Below are positions 121 through 16,976 of a DNA stretch of 64,000 nucleotides, in pieces. Position 1 is the stretch's first letter, and every line of letters begins with the position of its first letter. The translations under genes were made by a program, and so were the position numbers. This DNA is from Pseudomonadota bacterium. GTDB lineage: Bacteria > Pseudomonadota > Gammaproteobacteria > JAADHS01. The DNA lies in the NCBI GenBank assembly GCA_021821045.1, contig JAKACW010000002.1, positions 1-64,000 of the forward strand. The letters are read 5' to 3'. The notes beneath the pieces were generated by a model, which was not told the origin of the DNA, ran no database searches, and saw only the letters and a list, made by a program, of their open reading frames with translations.

Positions 121-237
121 CCTCAACGCGGCGTTCAGCGGCGCGTGAAACGGAGGGCGTTTTGTGCGAAAAGCGCGCGAAGCGCGGCGCACAAAAGGCC
201 CGGAGTTTCACGCGTCCGATGCAACGACTTGTTATGT
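121..237 (-). repeat. attC site of cassette 4
   Basis: Read on the minus strand, the site opens with R'' ACATAAC (237-231) and closes with R' GTTGAGG (127-121). Between them are complementary arms that include TTTCACGCG/CGCGTGAAA and a GC-rich centre, so the single strand folds into the usual attC hairpin. It starts a few bases after the stop codon of the cassette 4 gene. The length of about 117 bp matches attC1 and attC2. Recombination would occur between the G and TT of R'. Confidence 0.9.
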
Positions 238-988: not shown

Positions 989-1804
989 CTATTTGGGACC
1001 GCGCAATGCGTACTGCTGCAAATCGTCTGAGGATATACTCGATGCCGGAACAAGTTGGTAGTGCTTTTCTTCGACAACCCGGATGTCGCCGTCCTGAACG
1101 GTGAGTTCAAACATGGCGATCCGTTCTTCACTCATGAACTGCGCCGATACTGCCCGACAAATAAGGTCCGGAAATTTTTCCGCACAGCACATCACGTCCT
1201 GTTGAGTTTGAACAACGCCGTGTTTGTCGCTCCCACCCTTCGCTTGGACCGGAACGACGAACTGCCTGCCGTGCCGGTCGATACCAACGTATATTTCATC
1301 GATCTCAATCTGTCCGACCTTTTGCACAGTCGTCCTGAGGTGGTTCTGCAGTGAAAACGCTGTGATTCCCAAAAATACGTCCACCAGACGGTTGTAGCGC
1401 ACCTTAGCCAACAAGGACTGCTCGTCGCTGAGCGCGTATGCGCCGATGATCTCTGGGGTCGCATCTGGGACTTTTATGGTCAGCAGCTCTTCGCGCGGAA
1501 GGATACGATTCAACCGCACCTGCTTGAATCGATAGCGTGCGCGACCTGCGCCTTCGATAATCCACTCCAAGCCGCCGACTGCGGTGGCTCGGATAGTATC
1601 TGGCAATTCGTTTCGATAACGAAACGAATAGATCACATCGCCGACATTTTTGGGTAACTTGATCCCGAGCGTCCTCGCGATCGCTTCAAACTCATCGCGC
1701 GTGAACTCGAACTCTGTTATGCCCGGTTGGTGATGGTGCTCGAAAACGGTTGCGATGATCGCCTGATACCGATTCGGCTGACGTACGCTCCGCTGCCTAG
1801 GCAT
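989..1804 (-). CDS. Probable type II restriction endonuclease, PD-(D/E)XK type
   Basis: A 271-aa protein encoded last in the vsr-methyltransferase operon. Its ATG (1804-1802) overlaps the end of the methyltransferase gene. Near residues 167-189 it has acidic residues (E167, D169, E170, D176), then a beta-strand-like run ending in Q187-A188-K189-G. This resembles the D-x(n)-(E/Q)xK catalytic core of restriction enzymes, where Gln in place of Glu is known (BglII). The N-terminal third (residues 10-105) could be a winged-helix DNA-reading domain. Position supports the role: an orphan methyltransferase would not need a tightly coupled partner, and attC3 follows directly. The recognition sequence cannot be read from the sequence. 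Family assignment is inference. Confidence 0.68.
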   Translation of the reverse strand: MPRQRSVRQPNRYQAIIATVFEHHHQPGITEFEFTRDEFEAIARTLGIKLPKNVGDVIYSFRYRNELPDTIRATAVGGLEWIIEGAGRARYRFKQVRLNRILPREELLTIKVPDATPEIIGAYALSDEQSLLAKVRYNRLVDVFLGITAFSLQNHLRTTVQKVGQIEIDEIYVGIDRHGRQFVVPVQAKGGSDKHGVVQTQQDVMCCAEKFPDLICRAVSAQFMSEERIAMFELTVQDGDIRVVEEKHYQLVPASSISSDDLQQYALRGPK

Positions 1805-3089
1805 ATGCGCGGTCCCAGAAGTCGCGTTGTTTTGGATCTTTCTTTCTCAGGCGCTGAGCGATGGTGTCACGTGGCACCTGGAAGTATCGAGCGGCGTCGC
1901 CCATATCGAACGTCAGCAGCTCGGGGTCTCCTGGGCATAGAACTGCCCTCGGCTTCGGAGGCTTAACGTCTAGTGCTCGCCCAATCTCGCGCGCAACAGC
2001 GCGCGCCAAGAGCGGCGGGACGCTATTGCCAATTTGCCGGAATCCGTGCCATTTAGTCGAATGGAAGCGGAACCAGTCGGGGTATGAATGCAATCGCGCC
2101 GCTTCGCGCACGGTAATGACGCGGGGAAGAAATGGGTGAATAGGGCGTGGCGACGTGAAAGCGCCACGCGCGCTGTCTGTTCCCGCGCGCAAGGTATTGC
2201 ACAATCCGTTTGGAGGAAGTTTGCGAAAACGGCTGACCGGCTCTGTTTTACCGTGCGCCGTCTCCATAAAACGGCCTTTAGAAATCGGCGTGTGTTCGGT
2301 GCGAAGACTTGATGTAAGAAGATCCTTGTCGAATTTTCGCCGGTAACCAATGTCGTCTGGATCGGGATCAAGGTTGCGCAATCTTCTGGCATAGCTAGAT
2401 TCGGTGACCCATGTGGCGCGAACCGAGTCAGACTGCTCGAGCTCCCGGAAGGAATCTGCGTCCGGGAGGTCTCCGATCGCTTCCCATACAGTGATGCGCT
2501 CGGTCAAGGGATCCGGGTAACGTGGGAGCGCCAAACCGCGCCGCGCGCCCATCAGGAACAGACGGTGGCGATCTTGTGGAACACCAAAATTTGCGGCGTT
2601 GAGCACTTGGTGCGGGAGCACAACGTCGTATCCGGCTCCATCCAACGCTGCGACAAGTTCGTCCAGAAACTCGGAATGCTTCCCAAGCGTTAGTCCTTTG
2701 ACGTTTTCGAAGACAAAATACTTCGGCTTGAGCTCTTTTACGATACGCACATAGTGGAACACCAACTGATTGCGTGGATCGTCGAGGGCGCGTTTCCCGA
2801 TAAGCGAAAACCCTTGGCAAGGCGCACCGCCAAATACGGCGTCGATATCGGTATCGCCTATAGCCGCTCTCCGACGAATGTCCTCGCCAGTTACGTCCAC
2901 GACACTCGCGCAAATTGCTTTCGAATATGGAAAGTTGTACTCATGCGTCGCGCAATGGATCGGATCGATTTCGATGGCAGCCGCGATATCGAAACCAGCC
3001 TGCTCAAAACCCAAGGATAGGCCTCCGGCCCCGGCAAAAAGATCGACGCCAATCGGGCGTCGCTTACTACTTGTCTTCAAGGAAGGCAT
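1797..3089 (-). CDS. DNA (cytosine-5-)-methyltransferase
   Basis: A complete 430-aa C5-cytosine methyltransferase that transfers a methyl group from SAM to cytosine in a specific DNA site. The conserved motifs are in order: motif I DLFAGAGGLSLGF (residues 16-28), motif IV GGAPCQGFS with catalytic C91, motif VI FENV (127-130), motif VIII QDRHRLF (172-178) and motif X GNSVPPLLAR near 370. The target recognition domain lies between VIII and X. The last 40 residues add a small helix-turn-helix-like tail (MGDAARYFQVPRDTIAQRL), not part of the core fold. The gene overlaps vsr by 23 bp upstream and the endonuclease by 8 bp downstream, so the three are translated from one message. It protects host DNA and makes the mismatch that Vsr repairs. 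Confidence 0.95.
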   Translation of the reverse strand: MPSLKTSSKRRPIGVDLFAGAGGLSLGFEQAGFDIAAAIEIDPIHCATHEYNFPYSKAICASVVDVTGEDIRRRAAIGDTDIDAVFGGAPCQGFSLIGKRALDDPRNQLVFHYVRIVKELKPKYFVFENVKGLTLGKHSEFLDELVAALDGAGYDVVLPHQVLNAANFGVPQDRHRLFLMGARRGLALPRYPDPLTERITVWEAIGDLPDADSFRELEQSDSVRATWVTESSYARRLRNLDPDPDDIGYRRKFDKDLLTSSLRTEHTPISKGRFMETAHGKTEPVSRFRKLPPNGLCNTLRAGTDSARGAFTSPRPIHPFLPRVITVREAARLHSYPDWFRFHSTKWHGFRQIGNSVPPLLARAVAREIGRALDVKPPKPRAVLCPGDPELLTFDMGDAARYFQVPRDTIAQRLRKKDPKQRDFWDRAYA

Positions 3090-3477
3090 ATATTTTTTCC
3101 GTCAATGTTTCGAGATCCTTCAACTCACACTGCCAAACGGTCAAAACCCTCCAACCGTCAGCTTCCAATTTGGCAATAATCTCCCGATCCCTTGCCCGGT
3201 TACGTTTAACTTTTGCTCGCCAGAATTTTACGTGGGTTTTCGGCAGTCTGGCATACCGACAAGCCTCGTGGCCATGCCAAAAACACCCGTTAACGAATAG
3301 TACTTTGCGACGCCCCGCGAAGACTAGATCAGGTTTGCCCGGCAACTTCTTGTCGTGCAACCGATAGCGGTACCCCATACCGAAAACCAAATGGCGGACG
3401 GCCAGTTCTGGGATCGTATCCTTCGACCGAACACGGCTCATCAACCAACCACGACGCGCCGGACTCAGTTTATCCAC
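3067..3477 (-). CDS. vsr: Vsr very-short-patch mismatch endonuclease
   Basis: A 136-aa protein that nicks 5' of T in T:G mismatches formed when 5-methylcytosine deaminates, so it counteracts the mutagenic effect of the neighbouring methyltransferase. It has the full family length and the signature MSRVRSKDTIPELAVR near the N-terminus, the catalytic D50 in KPDLVFAGRR, and the FVNGCFWHGH segment (61-70) carrying the active-site histidines. The start is GTG 3477-3475, supported by GAGGTGA a few bases upstream. It is the first gene of cassette 3; only 46 bases separate it from the cassette border. In E. coli vsr overlaps the end of dcm; here the order is reversed, with vsr first. Confidence 0.95.
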   Translation of the reverse strand: MDKLSPARRGWLMSRVRSKDTIPELAVRHLVFGMGYRYRLHDKKLPGKPDLVFAGRRKVLFVNGCFWHGHEACRYARLPKTHVKFWRAKVKRNRARDREIIAKLEADGWRVLTVWQCELKDLETLTEKIYAFLEDK

Positions 3478-3517: not shown

Positions 3518-3634
3518 GCCCAACGCCGTGCTCACCGGACCGTGAGCGGAGCGGGTTTTTGTGCGAAGATGGCGCGCAGCGCCAGCACAAAAACCCGCGT
3601 AGACTCACGGGTCCGGTGCAGCAACTTGTTAGCG
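3518..3634 (-). repeat. attC site of cassette 2
   Basis: On the minus strand R'' CGCTAAC (3634-3628) and R' GTTGGGC (3524-3518) flank long complementary arms (GCACCGGACCCGTGAG pairing with CTCACGGTCCGGTGAGC) and a second inner palindrome rich in CGGGTTTTTG. Most positions are the same as in attC1, so both descend from the same integron's attC pool. Confidence 0.93.
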
Positions 3635-3930: not shown

Positions 3931-4048
3931 CGCTAACGCCGTGCTCAGCGGACCGTGAGCGGAGCGGGTTTTTGCGCAACAATGGCGCGAAGCGACAGGC
4001 GCAAAAAGCCGCGTAGTCTCACGGGTCCGCTGCAGCTACTGGTTAGGT
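3931..4048 (-). repeat. attC site of cassette 1
   Basis: On the minus strand R'' ACCTAAC (4048-4042) and R' GTTAGCG (3937-3931) flank paired arms (GCAGCGGACCCGTGAG with CTCACGGTCCGCTGAGC). The R'' overlaps the stop codon of the cassette 1 gene. It is near-identical to attC2 apart from scattered, often compensating, changes on opposite arms (for example GGACCG/CGGTCC kept on both sides). Confidence 0.93.
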
Positions 4049-4749
4049 TATTCCTTTTTTTCACCTTGAAGCATGGCGCGCAAATCATCTTTCGCTTCCC
4101 GCTTGACGTCTTCGAAAAATGTCCAGCGATGGGCTGCAAGTGACGGATCATCTCCGTTGTCGAGCAGGCTTTGCATTGCGGCTTCCAAGTTAAAAAGGAA
4201 CTCCATAAGTTCCTCAAACTCTCCAATATTCGTTTTCGAGAACAGCGCCCTTCGTTCGTCGTCTTCGACGACTTCCTTGTGTGCGAATACTTTGTGCCGT
4301 ATGTCTCTATATTTTTCTTCGAATATTTTTCTTTTCGCAGCAACTTCTTTACGCAAAGCTCGAAAATCGGCGGCGGTTGGAACGTAAGCTTTGCCCACAT
4401 ACTCGTTCAACTCTGCCTCAGTTCGAAAATTACCTTTCCTTCGTTCAGAAAGCGCCTTGGTAGAAAACATCCCGGGATTCTCTTGAGCGGTTCGGACAAG
4501 CGTGTCGATACCATGCGGCGACTTTTGATCGAATATGCGACCTAAACAGGTGAAAAAGGTGTTTTGCAGCGAGTACAGAGTGATGTTCCAAAATATGCTG
4601 TGCCGATTCAAAACATGATAATTCTCTTTACTTTCGGCGCCGAACGCATGTATTGCTTTGTATGTAAAATACGCTCGAGCAGTCGCAAATGTATCATCTC
4701 TAATCAGAGACAGTTCGCGGATAAAAGTGCTCGTTGCGGCGTTGCACAT
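4048..4749 (-). CDS. Cassette 1 protein, HEPN/AbiU2-like
   Basis: A 233-aa soluble helical protein in the first cassette after attI, the position best expressed in integrons. A long helical N-terminus contains FWNITLYSLQNTFFTCLGRIFD (about residues 53-74). It is followed around residues 147-157 by RDIRHKVFAHKE, which fits the R-x(4-6)-H motif of HEPN domains, and the combination matches what I know of the AbiU2-type HEPN family. HEPN proteins are often RNases in toxin-antitoxin or abortive-infection systems. No antitoxin partner is encoded in the cassette, so it may be a solitary defence protein or an inactive homologue. Start ATG 4749-4747 is 11 bases from the cassette border. Family assignment is inference. 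Confidence 0.75.
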   Translation of the reverse strand: MCNAATSTFIRELSLIRDDTFATARAYFTYKAIHAFGAESKENYHVLNRHSIFWNITLYSLQNTFFTCLGRIFDQKSPHGIDTLVRTAQENPGMFSTKALSERRKGNFRTEAELNEYVGKAYVPTAADFRALRKEVAAKRKIFEEKYRDIRHKVFAHKEVVEDDERRALFSKTNIGEFEELMEFLFNLEAAMQSLLDNGDDPSLAAHRWTFFEDVKREAKDDLRAMLQGEKKE

Positions 4750-4759
4750 GGTGTTTTTA

Positions 4760-4830
4760 ACCTAACAGTCATTTAGACGGGAAAAAGAAATAACATTTTA
4801 GTACTCGTCACTGACTAATCTTTTTAGTAG
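4760..4830 (-). other. attI recombination site (right part approximate)
   Basis: The core GTTAGGT (4766-4760 on the minus strand) is the junction between integron platform and cassette 1; its TTAGGT belongs to the cassette. The adjacent 65 or so bases are AT-rich, unlike the surrounding GC-rich DNA, and contain short inverted pieces such as CTAATCTTTTTAG, as expected for an attI with accessory integrase sites. The outer limit cannot be read exactly. Confidence 0.75.
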
Positions 4831-4897
4831 GTGTAGCTGAAATAAAAAATAGTATAGTAAAATATTGAAAATACATAATAACGAAAAGGACCGTCAC
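4831..4897. promoter_or_regulatory. AT-rich intI leader with overlapping divergent -10 boxes
   Basis: The stretch contains TATAGT on the plus strand (4853-4858) and TATACT on the minus strand (4856-4851), candidate -10 boxes for intI and for the cassette promoter Pc. Neither has a convincing -35 at the right distance. An AAAAGGA ribosome binding site (4884-4890) precedes the intI ATG. I found no LexA box (CTGT-N8-ACAG) here, so SOS control, known for several intI genes, is not supported by sequence. Confidence 0.4.
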
Positions 4898-6406
4898 ATG
4901 GCCAGCGGCGAGAACGATCCACGGAAAAAACTAAGCGCCACAGTCAATTGGAATCAATTCATCTCCCGTCTCAGTCAGCAAGGCATGAAGGAGAAGGAGC
5001 TGCGGTGGCGGGTTATTCGCGCCGAACGGTATCTCGAATCGCTTGGCGACAAGCCTTTTGCCGAACACACGCCCGATGATGTCGTGAAGTACTTCAATCA
5101 GATTGGCCGGCTGCCCAACGTGGAAGATTGGCAGTTTTCCCGCCTCGTCGATTCCGTTCACACGTTGTACAGCGTCGTCGGCGCGTCGTGGTTGACGCAA
5201 ATCGACTGGGCGCATTGGCGTAATTCGGCGCGTTCGTTGTCGGTTAGCCATCCAACGCTGGCGCGAGAGAGCTACCGCGCCGTTCGGGCGGAACAATCCA
5301 CACCTTCGTCTCCGTTGCCGCCGAAAGAAACCGCAAAGCGGTTGCGCGCCGAGGCCGCCGATGCGCTGATCCGCGAGATTCGCCGCCGCAACATGTCGAT
5401 CAGAACGGAGCAAGCCTATGCCGGCTGGTTGGACCGTCTGCTGGGGCACTGCAAATCGAAGTTGCCCCACGACATTTCCACCGAAGACGTTCATTCGTTT
5501 CTGCAATACCTCGCCGTAGACCGCAACGTCTCGGCCAGCACCCAGAACCAGGCGCTTTCGGCCATTGTGTTCTTTTTTCGCGATGTCATGGGCCGACCTC
5601 TTGGTAAATTGGAGGAGTTGTCGCGGGCTAATCGGCCGCAGCATTTGCCGGTGTGTCTCACACAGAACGAAGTCAATCGCTTGCTCGATCATATGCACGG
5701 CCTGTCGGGCTTGATGGGTCGGTTGTTGTACGGCACAGGCATGCGCATGATGGAGTGTGTCCGCCTGCGCGTTAAGGATGTCGATTTCGGATACAAACAG
5801 ATCCTCGTACGCGATGGTAAGGGCGAGAAGGACCGTGTCGTTCCGCTGCCGCAAAGCCTGGTCGAGCCGCTCAAGGCCCATCTTTCAGCGCGCCACCGCC
5901 AGCATGAGGAGGACCTTGCGGCAGGGTATGGCGATGTCTTTCTTCCCAATGCGCTGGAGAAGAAGTTTCCCAATGCCAGCAAAGACTGGGGTTGGCAGTA
6001 TGTTTTCGCCAGTGGCCGATTGGCAGTGGATCCGCGTTCCAAGAAGGTTCGCCGCCATCATGTCTATGAGCAAGGCCTGCAGAAGGCGCTGCAAAAAGCG
6101 CGACTGAGCGCGAAGATCTCCAAGAAGATTTCCCTCCACACCCTCCGCCACAGCTTCGCCACCCATCTGCTCGAAGCCGGCTACGACATCCGCACGGTGC
6201 AGGAGTTGTTGGGTCACGTCGATGTGTCGACGACGATGATTTACACCCATGTGCTGAACCGCGGCGGGCGCGGTGTGCAGAGTCCGTTGGATAAATTGGC
6301 CGGCGATGATTGGCGGGTCGAAGAACCGCGCGCTGTGTATGGCTTACCCGAATTCAGCCACGCTACCGCCATTGCCGTACCACTCACGTCGCACGACAGG
6401 GTTTAA
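4898..6406 (+). CDS. intI: Integron integrase IntI with long N-terminal extension
   Basis: A 502-aa tyrosine recombinase that joins cassette attC sites to attI. The C-terminal two thirds is a classical IntI. It has a SAM-like core-binding domain from about residue 160 ([15 protein letters not shown]) and catalytic Arg in GTGMRMMEC (about 281). The IntI-specific extra segment ([16 protein letters not shown], then [11 protein letters not shown]) separates it from XerC/D. H[11 protein letters not shown] (about 412-424), GH and Tyr about 449 complete the site. The start ATG 4898 has AAAAGGA 7 bases upstream; an earlier in-frame TTG (4865) is less likely. Odd: usual IntI proteins are about 320-340 aa. 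Here roughly 150 extra residues ([14 protein letters not shown]... to ...[10 protein letters not shown]) look like a second, degenerate core-binding domain. Confidence 0.96.
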
Positions 6407-6499: not shown

Positions 6500-6760
6500 C
6501 TACTTTGCTTTGAGCGGAAAACGCTCGGGATGCGCGATGATCTCGTCGGTCAGATCGACATCCAGATCAGGCCAGTAGTAATGCCCGGGAGAGGGTTCCT
6601 CGACATTCAAGATCTTCCCCACTGACACGTCCTTGAACCACGGGAAGTCTTCATAGGACATAAACAGCTCGTGTCCATCCGCCAATAGCCAGACGCCATG
6701 GTTTGAGATATGGGTGACTTCAACCGGGGAAGTGCTGTTTCCAAGCGCATTTGAACTCAT
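6500..6760 (-). CDS. DUF2442-family protein
   Basis: An 86-aa protein ending in the family-typical stretch GVWLLADGHELFMSYEDFPWFKDVSVGKILNV..., then a C-terminal WPDLDVDLTDEII. DUF2442 proteins are small, fold like NE0471/DUF4160 partners and usually sit next to a DUF4160 gene, in what has been proposed to be a toxin-antitoxin-like module. The ATG (6760-6758) lies inside the end of the DUF4160 gene (41-bp overlap), so the two are co-translated. No biochemical function is established. Confidence 0.8.
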   Translation of the reverse strand: MSSNALGNSTSPVEVTHISNHGVWLLADGHELFMSYEDFPWFKDVSVGKILNVEEPSPGHYYWPDLDVDLTDEIIAHPERFPLKAK

Positions 6761-6959
6761 CGTGATGTGCCTCGATAATTTGCTCGATCTCCTTGAGCTG
6801 GGTTCGCGAAAGACGAAAATTGTTGGCCAGTTCGATGTGCGGCTCCAGCCAGAATTTTGCTTCGCCGTCGCCGCAATAGACGTGAACATGCATTCGTGAC
6901 TCCTCGCGCGAGAAGAAGAAGAAGCGATAGCCTTTTTCTCTGAATACAGTCGGACTCAC
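6720..6959 (-). CDS. DUF4160-family protein
   Basis: A 79-aa protein with the DUF4160 pattern: an N-terminal strand region YRFFFFSREE, then HVHVYCGDGEAKFWLEPHIELANNFRLS and a C-terminal helix ending in HHDEFKCAWKQHF. It starts at GTG 6959-6957, which overlaps the stop codon of the upstream gene (GTGA), and it overlaps the DUF2442 gene downstream. The three genes form one tight operon. DUF4160 is often listed as a putative toxin partner, but the activity is unproven. Confidence 0.82.
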   Translation of the reverse strand: MSPTVFREKGYRFFFFSREESRMHVHVYCGDGEAKFWLEPHIELANNFRLSRTQLKEIEQIIEAHHDEFKCAWKQHFPG

Positions 6960-8163: not shown

Positions 8164-8463
8164 TTACTTTCGCCCAATCTGCTCGGCCCAGTAGTCGGGT
8201 CTTCTATGTTGGTGCGCGATCGCAATAACAAAAATGTGATCAGTTTCTATTGAATACAGAACCTTGTACGGGAACTTGTGCAACAAGCACTTGCGAACAG
8301 TGCCCCGCTCGACCGCCCATGCTTCGGGATTTTTTGTTATTCGTTCTACCGCAAGCGCCACTTCTTGTCGAAATCGCCTGCCGAGGCCTTCGAACTCGAG
8401 TTCGTAGTACGCTGTCGCGTCGTTCAACTCGAACTGAGCATATTCGGAAAAGAAAACGCGCAC
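8164..8463 (-). CDS. RelE/ParE-family toxin
   Basis: A 99-aa protein with the RelE/ParE layout: an N-terminal strand (RVFFSEYAQFEL), two helices (DATAYYELEFEGLGRRFRQEVALAVERITKNPEAW), then strands VRKCLLHKFPYKVLYSIETDHIFVIAIAHQHRRPDYW. The final H-x-x-R-x-P-x-Y-W is characteristic. Members either cleave mRNA on ribosomes (RelE) or poison gyrase (ParE); the sequence alone does not decide. GTG start three bases after the antitoxin stop. The antitoxin gene comes first, the usual order. Confidence 0.9.
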   Translation of the reverse strand: MRVFFSEYAQFELNDATAYYELEFEGLGRRFRQEVALAVERITKNPEAWAVERGTVRKCLLHKFPYKVLYSIETDHIFVIAIAHQHRRPDYWAEQIGRK

Positions 8464-14100: not shown

Positions 14101-15709
14101 CCTGCGCGAACTGCTGACGAAAGTAATCGAACACCGAGCGCACGTTGCGCGACAGCACCGCCATCGGCGTGTCATCGCCCATGGAACCGACAGCCTCTTG
14201 GCCCGCTTTACCCAACACGCGAATAATCTGATCGCGCTCTTCGAACGTGATTTGAAACTGCTTTTGATAAACGTTGATGGTGTCATCGCCCATGGGATCG
14301 GACGTGAGCACCTCGCCGTTCAAATCCTCGCACAGATAGCGAACGTTATCCCTGACCCACTGGCGATACGGGTGTCGGCTTTTCAGATCGTTGTCGATAT
14401 CAGCGGGTAACAGCAATTCGCCGAGCGCGGTGTCGGCCGCGATCATCTGCCCGGGCTTGAGGCGTCCCTTGGCGACCACCGACTCGGGGGCATAATCGAA
14501 CACGCCGGTTTCGGAGGCGAGAATGATCACGCAACCGGAATAGACACCGTTGCCTTTGCGCGCCACGTCTTGCCGCGTCACCACATAGCGCGCGGGGCGC
14601 AGGCCATTGCGGTCCATGGCGCAGGCGGCGTAGCGGCCGTCGGTCATGACCAAACCCGCCGGGCCGTCCCACGGCTCCATGTGCATGGAACTGAATTCGT
14701 AGAATGCACGCAGATCGGGGTCCATGGTTTCGATGTTCTGCCACGCCGGCGGAACCAGTAAACGCATGGCGCGGAACAGATCGACGCCGCCGGCCAGCAG
14801 CACCTCGAGCATGTTGTCCAAGGTGCAGGAATCCGAACCCGTCGTGGAGACCAGCGGGCGGATGTCTTCCATGTTGGGAATCAACGGCGAGGAGAACGTA
14901 TAACTGCGCGCCAACGCCCAGTTGCGATTGCCCTGTACGGTGTTGATTTCGCCGTTGTGGGCGAGATAACGGAACGGCTGGGCGAGGCGCCATTCGGGCC
15001 AGGTATTGGTAGAAAACCGCTGATGAAAGACCACGATGCCTGACGATAACCGCTCGTCGTTTAAGTCAGTGTAAAACACCGGCAAGTTGGCCGGCATGAC
15101 CAAGCCTTTGTACGACACCACATGACTGGACAGGCTCGGCACGTAAAACATCGGATCGTTGGCGCCAACCAGCTTTTCGGCGCGGCGGCGCGCGATGAAC
15201 AGGCGGCGTTCGAAGGCGACCTCGTCCATTCCCGCACCGGCGTTGACGAAAACTTGCTCGATGGTCGGGAGCGTCTTGAGCGCTTCTTCGCCGCAAGCTT
15301 TGGAGTCGGTTGGCACTTTGCGCCAGCCGGCGACAGTGAGACCTTGTTCGCGTAACTCTTTTGTAAGACGTTCGCGTGACGCGGCGGCGATGCGCTCGTC
15401 ACGATTGAGGAAAACCATGCCGACCGCGTAGCTCTCGTCGACCTTAATCCCTAAGTCCTGCGCCACGGCGCGGAAAAAAGCGTCGGGCTTTTTCATCAAC
15501 AGCCCGCAACCGTCTCCGGTCTTGCCGTCGGCGGCGACGGCGCCGCGATGGGTCAGACGGGCGAGAGAGTTGATAGCAGTGCGCACCAGCCAGTGACTGT
15601 CGGCGCCATCCATGTGTGCGATGAGCCCAAAGCCGCAGCTGTCCTTTTCAAATGACGGGTGGTACAACCCGGCAGCAGTGAGTTTGTCTACACGGTCCAC
15701 GGAGATCAA
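11192..15709 (-). CDS. gltB: Glutamate synthase large subunit
   Basis: A 1505-aa alpha subunit that converts 2-oxoglutarate and glutamine to two glutamates. The class II amidotransferase domain begins after a short propeptide; the nucleophile is Cys in [14 protein letters not shown] (about residue 25). The central domain is followed by the FMN domain ([28 protein letters not shown]) and the 3Fe-4S loop [15 protein letters not shown], and the C-terminal GXGXG beta-helix carries [11 protein letters not shown]. The start is uncertain: TTG 15709 or GTG 15700, neither with a good ribosome binding site. A sigma-70 promoter lies about 85 bases upstream. It heads gltB-gltD-hemE. Confidence 0.97.
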
Positions 15710-16043
15710 CCAATTCTTAAGTGTTTAAAAACCACGTTCTCGTTATACGCGCGCAAGCGCGGGCCCAATTTGTCAAGGCCAAAAGGGTACCCAGTATACT
15801 CAGACAGCCTTTGGGGGGCAATGTCCGGGCCATCCCGGCCATATGCCCGGGCCGCGCGGCAAACGTCTGAAAGCTGAGGGAATATCTATGCCTCATGGCT
15901 CCGGGGCGGAACGGCGGTTCCCTTCTATGGAACCGGCGAAATTGCGATCGGGGGTGATCAGCGACGCCCAAGATGCTTAAAGGCTATGGCATTATGGGAT
16001 GCCACTCAAATTGAGGCGTTTCACACCAGATTCAGGAAGGCAC
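15710..16043. other. Divergent intergenic region between gltB and the epimerase gene
   Basis: The 334-base space holds the gltB promoter (15793-15821) and a GC palindrome GCGCGCAAGCGCG. AGGAAGG (16034-16040) is the ribosome binding site of the epimerase gene. No gene-like frame was found. The right border also marks where the order shared with Pseudomonas breaks. Confidence 0.6.
15793..15821 (-). promoter_or_regulatory. Sigma-70 promoter for gltBD-hemE
   Basis: On the minus strand a -35 TTGCCC (15821-15816) and a -10 TATACT (15798-15793) are separated by 17 bp. The start of transcription would fall near 15786, leaving a leader of roughly 77 bases before gltB. Confidence 0.6.
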
Positions 16044-16976
16044 ATGACAACTGAACTCAGTTTCTCCGGCAAGCGGGCGCTCGTGACGGGAGCAAGCGGC
16101 TTCATTGGATCGGCGCTGGCCCGCCGCTTAGCCCAGCTGGGCGCACAAGTGCATGGCGTCTCGCGCCAGTCACAACCGGCCGATGAATATGTCACTCGTT
16201 GGTGGCAATGCCCGTTGGAGCAGATTGACTCAGTCCGCGCCATGCTCGCTGACGTGAAGCCGGACCTGATCTTTCACCTCGCGAGCACACCCGTTGGTGC
16301 CCGTGCGCTCGAACTGGTGCTGCCCCTTTTCCACAGCAATCTGCATTCGACCGTGAACCTGCTTACGGCTGCGACAGAGCACGGCTGTGAGCGCATCCTG
16401 CTCACTGGTTCGCTCGAAGAGCCCAACGTGGGCCCGGATTGGCCTGTGCCCAGCTCACCCTACGCCGCCTCGAAGTTTGCGGCCGCGACATATGGACGCA
16501 TGTTTCACGCGCTCTTCAATTCTCCCATAATTAATATGAGGGTCTTTATGGTCTATGGGCCGGGGCAGAAAGATCTGAAAAAGTTGATCCCCTACGTGAC
16601 GCTCGCGTTACTCAAGGGGGAGCATCCGCAGCTGTCGAGCGGGGTGCGCGAAGTTGACTGGATCTATGTGGACGATGTCGTGGAAGGCTATCTTGCGGCC
16701 GCGGTCGCACCGGGCGCGGAAGGCAGCACCGTTGATATCGGCACTGGTCGCCTCCATAGCGTGCGCATCGTGGCGGAGGAACTCTTCAAATTGATTAACC
16801 CGAATCTCAAACCCACGTTCGGTTCAGTTGCGGAACGGCCGATGGAGCAAGTGCGTGCAGCCAATGCGGACGAGAGCTTTCGACGCATTGGCTGGCGCGC
16901 GCAGGTGGATTTACGTGAAGGGTTAAGCCGTACGGTTGATTGGTATCGCGACAAACTGGAACGCGGTCTGGTCTAG
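16044..16976 (+). CDS. NAD-dependent epimerase/dehydratase (extended SDR)
   Basis: A 310-aa extended short-chain dehydrogenase of the nucleotide-sugar type. NAD-binding GASGFIG is at residues 16-22. The catalytic Y140-A-A-S-K144 pair follows a serine-rich SSP, and TGSLEEP (121-127) sits where family members keep the active-site Ser/Thr. It likely modifies a nucleotide-linked sugar; which one is not readable. I start at ATG 16044, three bases after AGGAAGG; an upstream in-frame ATG at 15999 has no binding site. It is the only rightward gene of the islet's left half and convergent with the next gene. Confidence 0.88.
   Translation: MTTELSFSGKRALVTGASGFIGSALARRLAQLGAQVHGVSRQSQPADEYVTRWWQCPLEQIDSVRAMLADVKPDLIFHLASTPVGARALELVLPLFHSNLHSTVNLLTAATEHGCERILLTGSLEEPNVGPDWPVPSSPYAASKFAAATYGRMFHALFNSPIINMRVFMVYGPGQKDLKKLIPYVTLALLKGEHPQLSSGVREVDWIYVDDVVEGYLAAAVAPGAEGSTVDIGTGRLHSVRIVAEELFKLINPNLKPTFGSVAERPMEQVRAANADESFRRIGWRAQVDLREGLSRTVDWYRDKLERGLV

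Follow-up and report, generated by a model that had tools for sequence, protein, structure and literature searches.

The integron integrase gene (intI) at positions 4898-6406 of the window, the whole 64,000-nucleotide stretch of DNA that was analysed, encodes an IntI preceded by an N-terminal extension that is predicted to be a second core-binding (CB, SAM-like) domain, and on comparison with sampled genomes this extension marks a whole overlooked IntI lineage. The feature that is new here is a set of direct repeats, by sequence statistics phased at 25-26 bp, in the attI regions of the carrier clade. The proposal is that, within the attI complex, the second CB domain would provide one more contact by binding these repeats beside the L box, a reading to which a probability of about 0.5 is assigned. 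Two open questions are touched by this pairing, namely how integrases tell attI from attC, and why accessory repeats are encountered at only some attI sites.

Table 1. Features of the integron in the window and the basis of each assignment
Feature	Positions	Strand	Basis or remark
intI, integron integrase with predicted tandem core-binding domains	4898-6406	+	502 aa; TIGR02249, PF00589, PF13495, 2a3v
Shine-Dalgarno sequence AAAAGGA	4884-4890	+	sequence; before ATG 4898
Predicted N-terminal second core-binding (SAM-like) domain, residues ~17-113	4946-5236	+	model helices; PF13495 on 8/13 relatives; hhalign and HMM
Linker, residues 114-141	5237-5320	+	low model confidence; opens with a motif kept in relatives as HATxARD
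Canonical IntI core-binding domain, residues ~142-236	5321-5605	+	PF13495 E 7.5e-28; model
Catalytic domain with IntI-specific insert, residues 250-467	5645-6298	+	PF00589 E 7e-41; invariant residues
C-terminal tail, residues 468-502	6299-6403	+	missing from aligned relatives; low model confidence
attI R box, first-cassette junction	4760-4766	-	GTTAGGT on minus strand (ACCTAAC forward); YTAACAGT context also in clade members
attI L-box-like TTTAGACG, first phased unit	4772-4779		sequence, clade comparison
attI direct repeat copy TTTTAGTACTCGTCACTGA	4796-4814		sequence; clade-level statistics
attI direct repeat copy, 26 bp on, 74% identical	4822-4840		sequence
First cassette gene, HEPN AbiU2-like	4048-4749	-	PF18734 E 6e-18
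attC site 1, 118 nt	3931-4048	-	fold; 88% identical to attC 2
attC site 2, 117 nt	3518-3634	-	fold
Cassette gene, Vsr mismatch endonuclease	3067-3477	-	PF03852
Cassette gene, C5-cytosine DNA methyltransferase	1797-3089	-	PF00145
Further attC site	124-234	-	75% identical to attC 2

An integron integrase with a predicted second core-binding domain

The NCBIfam model of integron integrases, TIGR02249, scored 439 bits against residues 157-467 of the 502-residue product (cut-off 265), and Pfam placed PF13495 at residues 155-236 and PF00589 at residues 254-453. The closest solved chain was that of VchIntIA/IntI4 (2a3v, E 2e-81). All catalytic residues were intact (R283, K308/K311, H414, R417, H440, and Y449), and the IntI-specific insert in the catalytic domain (residues ~343-368) was aligned and conserved with IntI relatives. 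Judged by sequence, the open reading frame is a bona fide integron integrase gene, adjoined by attI-like DNA and a cassette array. The original prediction had placed every IntI hallmark in the C-terminal 340 residues; the hallmarks were all recovered, but the IntI part is shorter, at about 311 residues (157-467). It had also given the protein 502 residues with about 150 extra ones at the N-terminus, as was found. A 35-residue tail past the usual IntI end was private to the window's protein among the aligned relatives.

A translation start near residue 150 was rejected on the basis of the Shine-Dalgarno sequence, purifying selection, and conservation. The in-frame codons in that area (TTG at 140 and 149, ATG at 166) each lack a Shine-Dalgarno sequence, and the ATG at residue 166 lies already within the core-binding domain. 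Such a start, which the original prediction had named as an observation that would undo it, is contradicted by the ribosome-binding sequence at ATG 4898 and by the lack of a good internal start. The alignment of relatives to the window's IntI begins at residue 16-18.

GC content by codon position in the extension (0.58/0.42/0.70) matches that of the core (0.63/0.38/0.72). In five pairs of relatives, Ka/Ks was 0.07-0.27 over the extension, 0.06-0.11 over the core, and 0.14-0.55 over the linker, the extension exceeding the core in four of the five pairs. These sequence comparisons indicate that the extension is translated and that, in relatives, it is subject to purifying selection. Because homologous extensions are found in about 30 diverse IntI, the codon-position GC matches, and Ka/Ks is low, the extension is taken to be more than a chance open frame.

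Profile comparisons relate the extension to the CB domain of IntI itself. Using hhalign, 13 extensions matched the IntI CB profile at 94% probability (E 8e-8), and the same 13 extensions gave about 1% or less against catalytic segments in two control comparisons. An HMM of the extension scored a median of 19 bits on the CB domains of short IntI and 16 bits on those of its own clade, compared with about 0 bits for reversed sequences and 1-8 bits for three other host tyrosine recombinases; the reverse profile search, CB against extension, gave a best E of 5.5e-8. Moreover, PF13495 matched 8 of 13 clade-member extensions (best E 9.4e-8), and the Pfam search with the window's own extension alone gave no PF13495 match. 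In a comparison of the extension profile with PDB chains, the four best matches were CB domains of IntI4 and lambda integrase, all below significance. The fourth helix opens with a Q-x-[LV]-[ND]-A-L motif that, together with conserved R71 and consensus Q82, parallels TQNQALNAL of the CB domain. The extension has a near-neutral net charge, with a mean pI of 8.1 versus 8.8 for the CB domain.

In an AlphaFold2 model of the full-length protein, the helices of the extension lie at residues 18-27, 32-48, 59-70, and 77-94, and those of the canonical CB domain at 142-163, 168-184, 195-208, and 213-230. The last three helices start at 32, 59, and 77 in the former and at 168, 195, and 213 in the latter, with equal spacing (27 and 18) and pLDDT of ~81-91; linker residues 114-127 fall below 50. 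Only two other rows of the underlying alignment spanned the extension, a point against the support that this confident model may lend to the CB fold, as is the low confidence at which the isolated extension yielded the same helices. A fold search with this isolated low-confidence model was uninformative. A lambda-type arm-binding domain was rejected as an identity for the extension, which is modelled as all-helical and has no arm-binding Pfam match. Taken at the level of sequence profiles and predicted structure, the extension is homologous to the IntI core-binding domain and the architecture reads CB-linker-CB-catalytic. The original prediction of a second SAM-like core-binding domain is thereby borne out, with agreement among the curated family match, the reciprocal profiles, the arrangement of helices, and the nearest chains of known structure; structure prediction, which it had suggested, gave a model in which the order and spacing of the CB helices recur.

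Judged by its sequence, the locus is an integron whose integrase gene is intact. Its cassette array lies on the minus strand upstream of intI, in the order AbiU2-like HEPN gene, attC, a stretch with no recognised gene, attC, Vsr, and methyltransferase; the attC sites at 3931-4048 and 3518-3634 were located by a folding search. The cassette genes between 1797 and 4749 seem suited to defence against phages or to the modification of DNA, and an unassigned 271-aa open reading frame (989-1804) that directly adjoins the methyltransferase gene could encode a restriction enzyme. Downstream of intI, the minus strand carries small genes for DUF2442 and DUF4160 proteins (6500-6959) and a ParE-like toxin gene (8164-8463) with a small open reading frame beside it. 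Elsewhere in the same genome, attC-like copies are located at C8:93277, C52:18291, and C62:3073, the second of these lying some 2 kb past a further tyrosine recombinase gene (15543-16319).

Distribution of the extension and phased repeats in attI

Among 369 genomes sampled from the host's class, at least 29 carry the extension in an open frame of 440 aa or more, and a scan of 398 genomes of the host's phylum added two more such carriers from other classes. In these two genome sets the extension HMM recovered extensions together with weaker hits, and those of the weaker hits that could be matched to a gene fell on IntI genes. A 454-aa long-form relative on a plasmid of Ca. Thiodictyon syntrophicum is annotated in RefSeq as integron integrase. 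The extension itself is unmarked in current annotation, and the standard IntI profile spans the C-terminal part only. In IMG/VR, a search with an extension-specific pattern gave no relatives of the extension, and a full-alignment search gave one loose relative, L114.

In an IntI tree built from 313 shared columns, all 29 carriers included formed one clade (SH-aLRT 98), of which the sole other row (L058) is apparently short because it is cut by a contig end; every complete sampled member of the clade has the extension. The extension is not peculiar to one protein, and in this respect the original prediction does not hold. The survey of IntI that it had called for revealed a clade-wide trait in the present sample, and another clade of IntI, about 120 aa longer, had been noted in 2008. 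Seven IntI with other N-terminal extensions formed a separate set in the tree (SH-aLRT 95). The type C extension of this second extended clade matched the CB profile at E 7e-8 and the type B extension alone matched it weakly (30% probability), which suggests that these two further extension types, of a separate clade, may also be CB-like. They are carried by the IntI of L044, L046-L050, L011, and L114, with L011 outside the tree.

Frame-shifted or decayed long-form intI copies are present in relatives (L179, L182, L188, and L192). The short open reading frames of these four loci were rejected as standalone extension proteins, being IntI with core remnants, and so was that of L205, which is cut by its contig. 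The short extension frame of L186 goes no further than the beginning of the CB domain, and those of L185, L203, and L206 had no core match at E 1e-3 within the stretches searched.

The carrier clade's attI regions tend, on sequence comparison, to have direct repeats phased at 25-26 bp, and short-form attI regions do not. In many clade members the phased repeats start at the L box, beside which repeat units 25-26 bp apart read, for example, TTAGACAGAATC (L165, L166) and GACTTATGTGAC (L175). The repeat sequence varies by lineage (L165 versus L175/L177) and the spacing is kept. The repeats were first spotted by eye and tested statistically afterwards, with three scoring variants applied overall; start codons, and hence the upstream stretches, were picked by a simple Shine-Dalgarno score. 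In the first test, covering periods of 21-30, 12 of 25 long loci were significant at 0.05 versus 10 of 105 short loci (Fisher p 4e-5). In an anchored test of 11 long and 13 short loci, the long set had its peak at a lag of 26, the only place where the null maximum was passed. With period 25/26 singled out, 35 long loci differed from 79 short loci at p 5e-10, and five control period pairs gave no significant difference between the same loci. The difference was retained both in the discovery loci alone (p 1e-6) and in hold-out loci gathered after the first two repeat tests (6 long versus 41 short, p 0.0016). The shuffles preserve base composition and not dinucleotides, and the short-form loci are the stronger control.

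The window's own attI repeat is marginal when taken alone (p 0.058), roughly half of the carrier-clade members have no significant attI repeat, and the attI regions of the second extended clade are without phased repeats. Because the carriers are one clade, the link between extension and repeats is an association and not an independent replication. The original suggestion that the extension could alter attI recognition thus gains support that is correlative, from the phased attI repeats in the carrier clade.

Proposed function and competing explanations

By analogy with other IntI, recombination of attC with attI or with a second attC would be catalysed by the C-terminal part. The added CB domain at the N-terminus would grip the direct repeats beside the L box, its DNA binding, its target, and its effect on recombination all being presumed, and repeat binding may help to assemble or orient the synapse, as an arm-binding domain or attI1 DR1/DR2 would. 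A more far-reaching version, in which the lineage's second CB domain binds the phased attI repeats as an independently evolved counterpart of lambda-type arm binding that controls cassette insertion at attI, is put forward tentatively, as somewhat the less probable of the two. Several observations count against an attI-repeat model. With a single clade, the association may be a historical coincidence; the near-neutral charge of the extension makes DNA binding not obvious; the window's repeat is weak, about half of the clade has no significant repeat, and the second extended clade has none; and the repeats could serve as operators in the control of intI.

Some of these points fit with a DNA-binding second CB domain whose site of action is the folded attC hairpin in single-stranded form, or the geometry of the synapse at large, with the attI repeats unrelated and serving, for example, as operators for intI or cassette expression. 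IntI recognises attC by structure, which favours this explanation, as do the restriction of significant repeats to about half of the clade and the second extended clade without them. The specificity of the period, its beginning at the L box in many members, its absence from short-form attI regions, and a spacing that is kept despite lineage-differing repeat sequences are not expected from it, however, and it is considered unlikely. Less likely again is a duplicate that has degenerated and no longer touches DNA, its role being structural or in protein-protein contact (at the dimer interface, in stability, or in regulation). The CB-like residues R71 and Q82 and the fourth-helix motif, as well as retention of the domain throughout the carrier clade, argue against such a role, to which the near-neutral charge and the higher Ka/Ks of the extension than of the core in four of five pairs would be suited. 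An artefact, that is a wrong start codon, a chance fusion, or a pseudogene extension, is very improbable: a comparable longer clade was treated in a section on pseudogenes by Nemergut et al. (2008; PMC2426708) and several copies in relatives are frame-shifted, but the Shine-Dalgarno sequence at ATG 4898 without a good internal start, purifying selection, conservation across many families, and the RefSeq-annotated Ca. Thiodictyon relative all oppose it. An additional contact of the second CB domain with the attI repeats remains the preferred reading. The clade pairs a natural integrase carrying an extra domain with repeat-bearing attI regions, and taking away the domain or a repeat would show what accessory binding contributes to directing cassette insertion.

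Comparison with known integrases and attachment sites

A literature search, with subscription journals largely outside its range, gave no paper that names an IntI extension a CB domain or ties it to attI repeats. Nemergut et al. (2008) described a group in clade 15 (Deltaproteobacteria) whose IntI are on average ~120 aa longer, attributed this to a single gene fusion, and suggested that they may be functional (PMC2426708). The present clade resembles that group in its group-wide greater length, no domain having been identified there, and differs in stemming from the host's class and other classes of its phylum.

The window's protein shares with VchIntIA/IntI4 and IntI1 the CB and catalytic domains, the IntI-specific insert, the catalytic residues, and an adjoining attI/attC array, whereas the extra N-terminal CB domain and linker are predicted in the present clade. 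Integron integrases were classed among the simple CB-CAT recombinases by Smyshlyaev et al. (2021), who reported two sequential CB domains in RitA and their absence from all other tyrosine recombinases (PMC8138268). RitA thus offers a likeness in domain order within a simple tyrosine recombinase; unlike RitA, which belongs to recombinase-in-trio elements, the window's gene adjoins a cassette array and scores as IntI. The tandem-CB architecture, which that recent classification had for RitA only, can now be proposed for a group of IntI.

The arm-binding integrases, such as those of lambda and Tn916, likewise have an N-terminal extra domain, and in both cases this domain could bind accessory sites flanking the core. 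The arm-binding domain consists of three beta-strands and a helix (PMC8138268), whereas the present extension is modelled as all-helical and CB-like. With respect to the attachment site, V. cholerae attIA is without phased repeats (PMC8191803), in contrast to the tendency in the present clade. The direct repeats of attI1 give the integrase accessory places to bind, which favours recombination of attI1 with attC; such repeats are missing from most attI sites (PMC8191803, PMC8946536). In their position next to the L and R boxes of attI, the repeats of the present clade are comparable to attI1 DR1/DR2 of class 1 integrons, where IntI1 acts without an extra domain.
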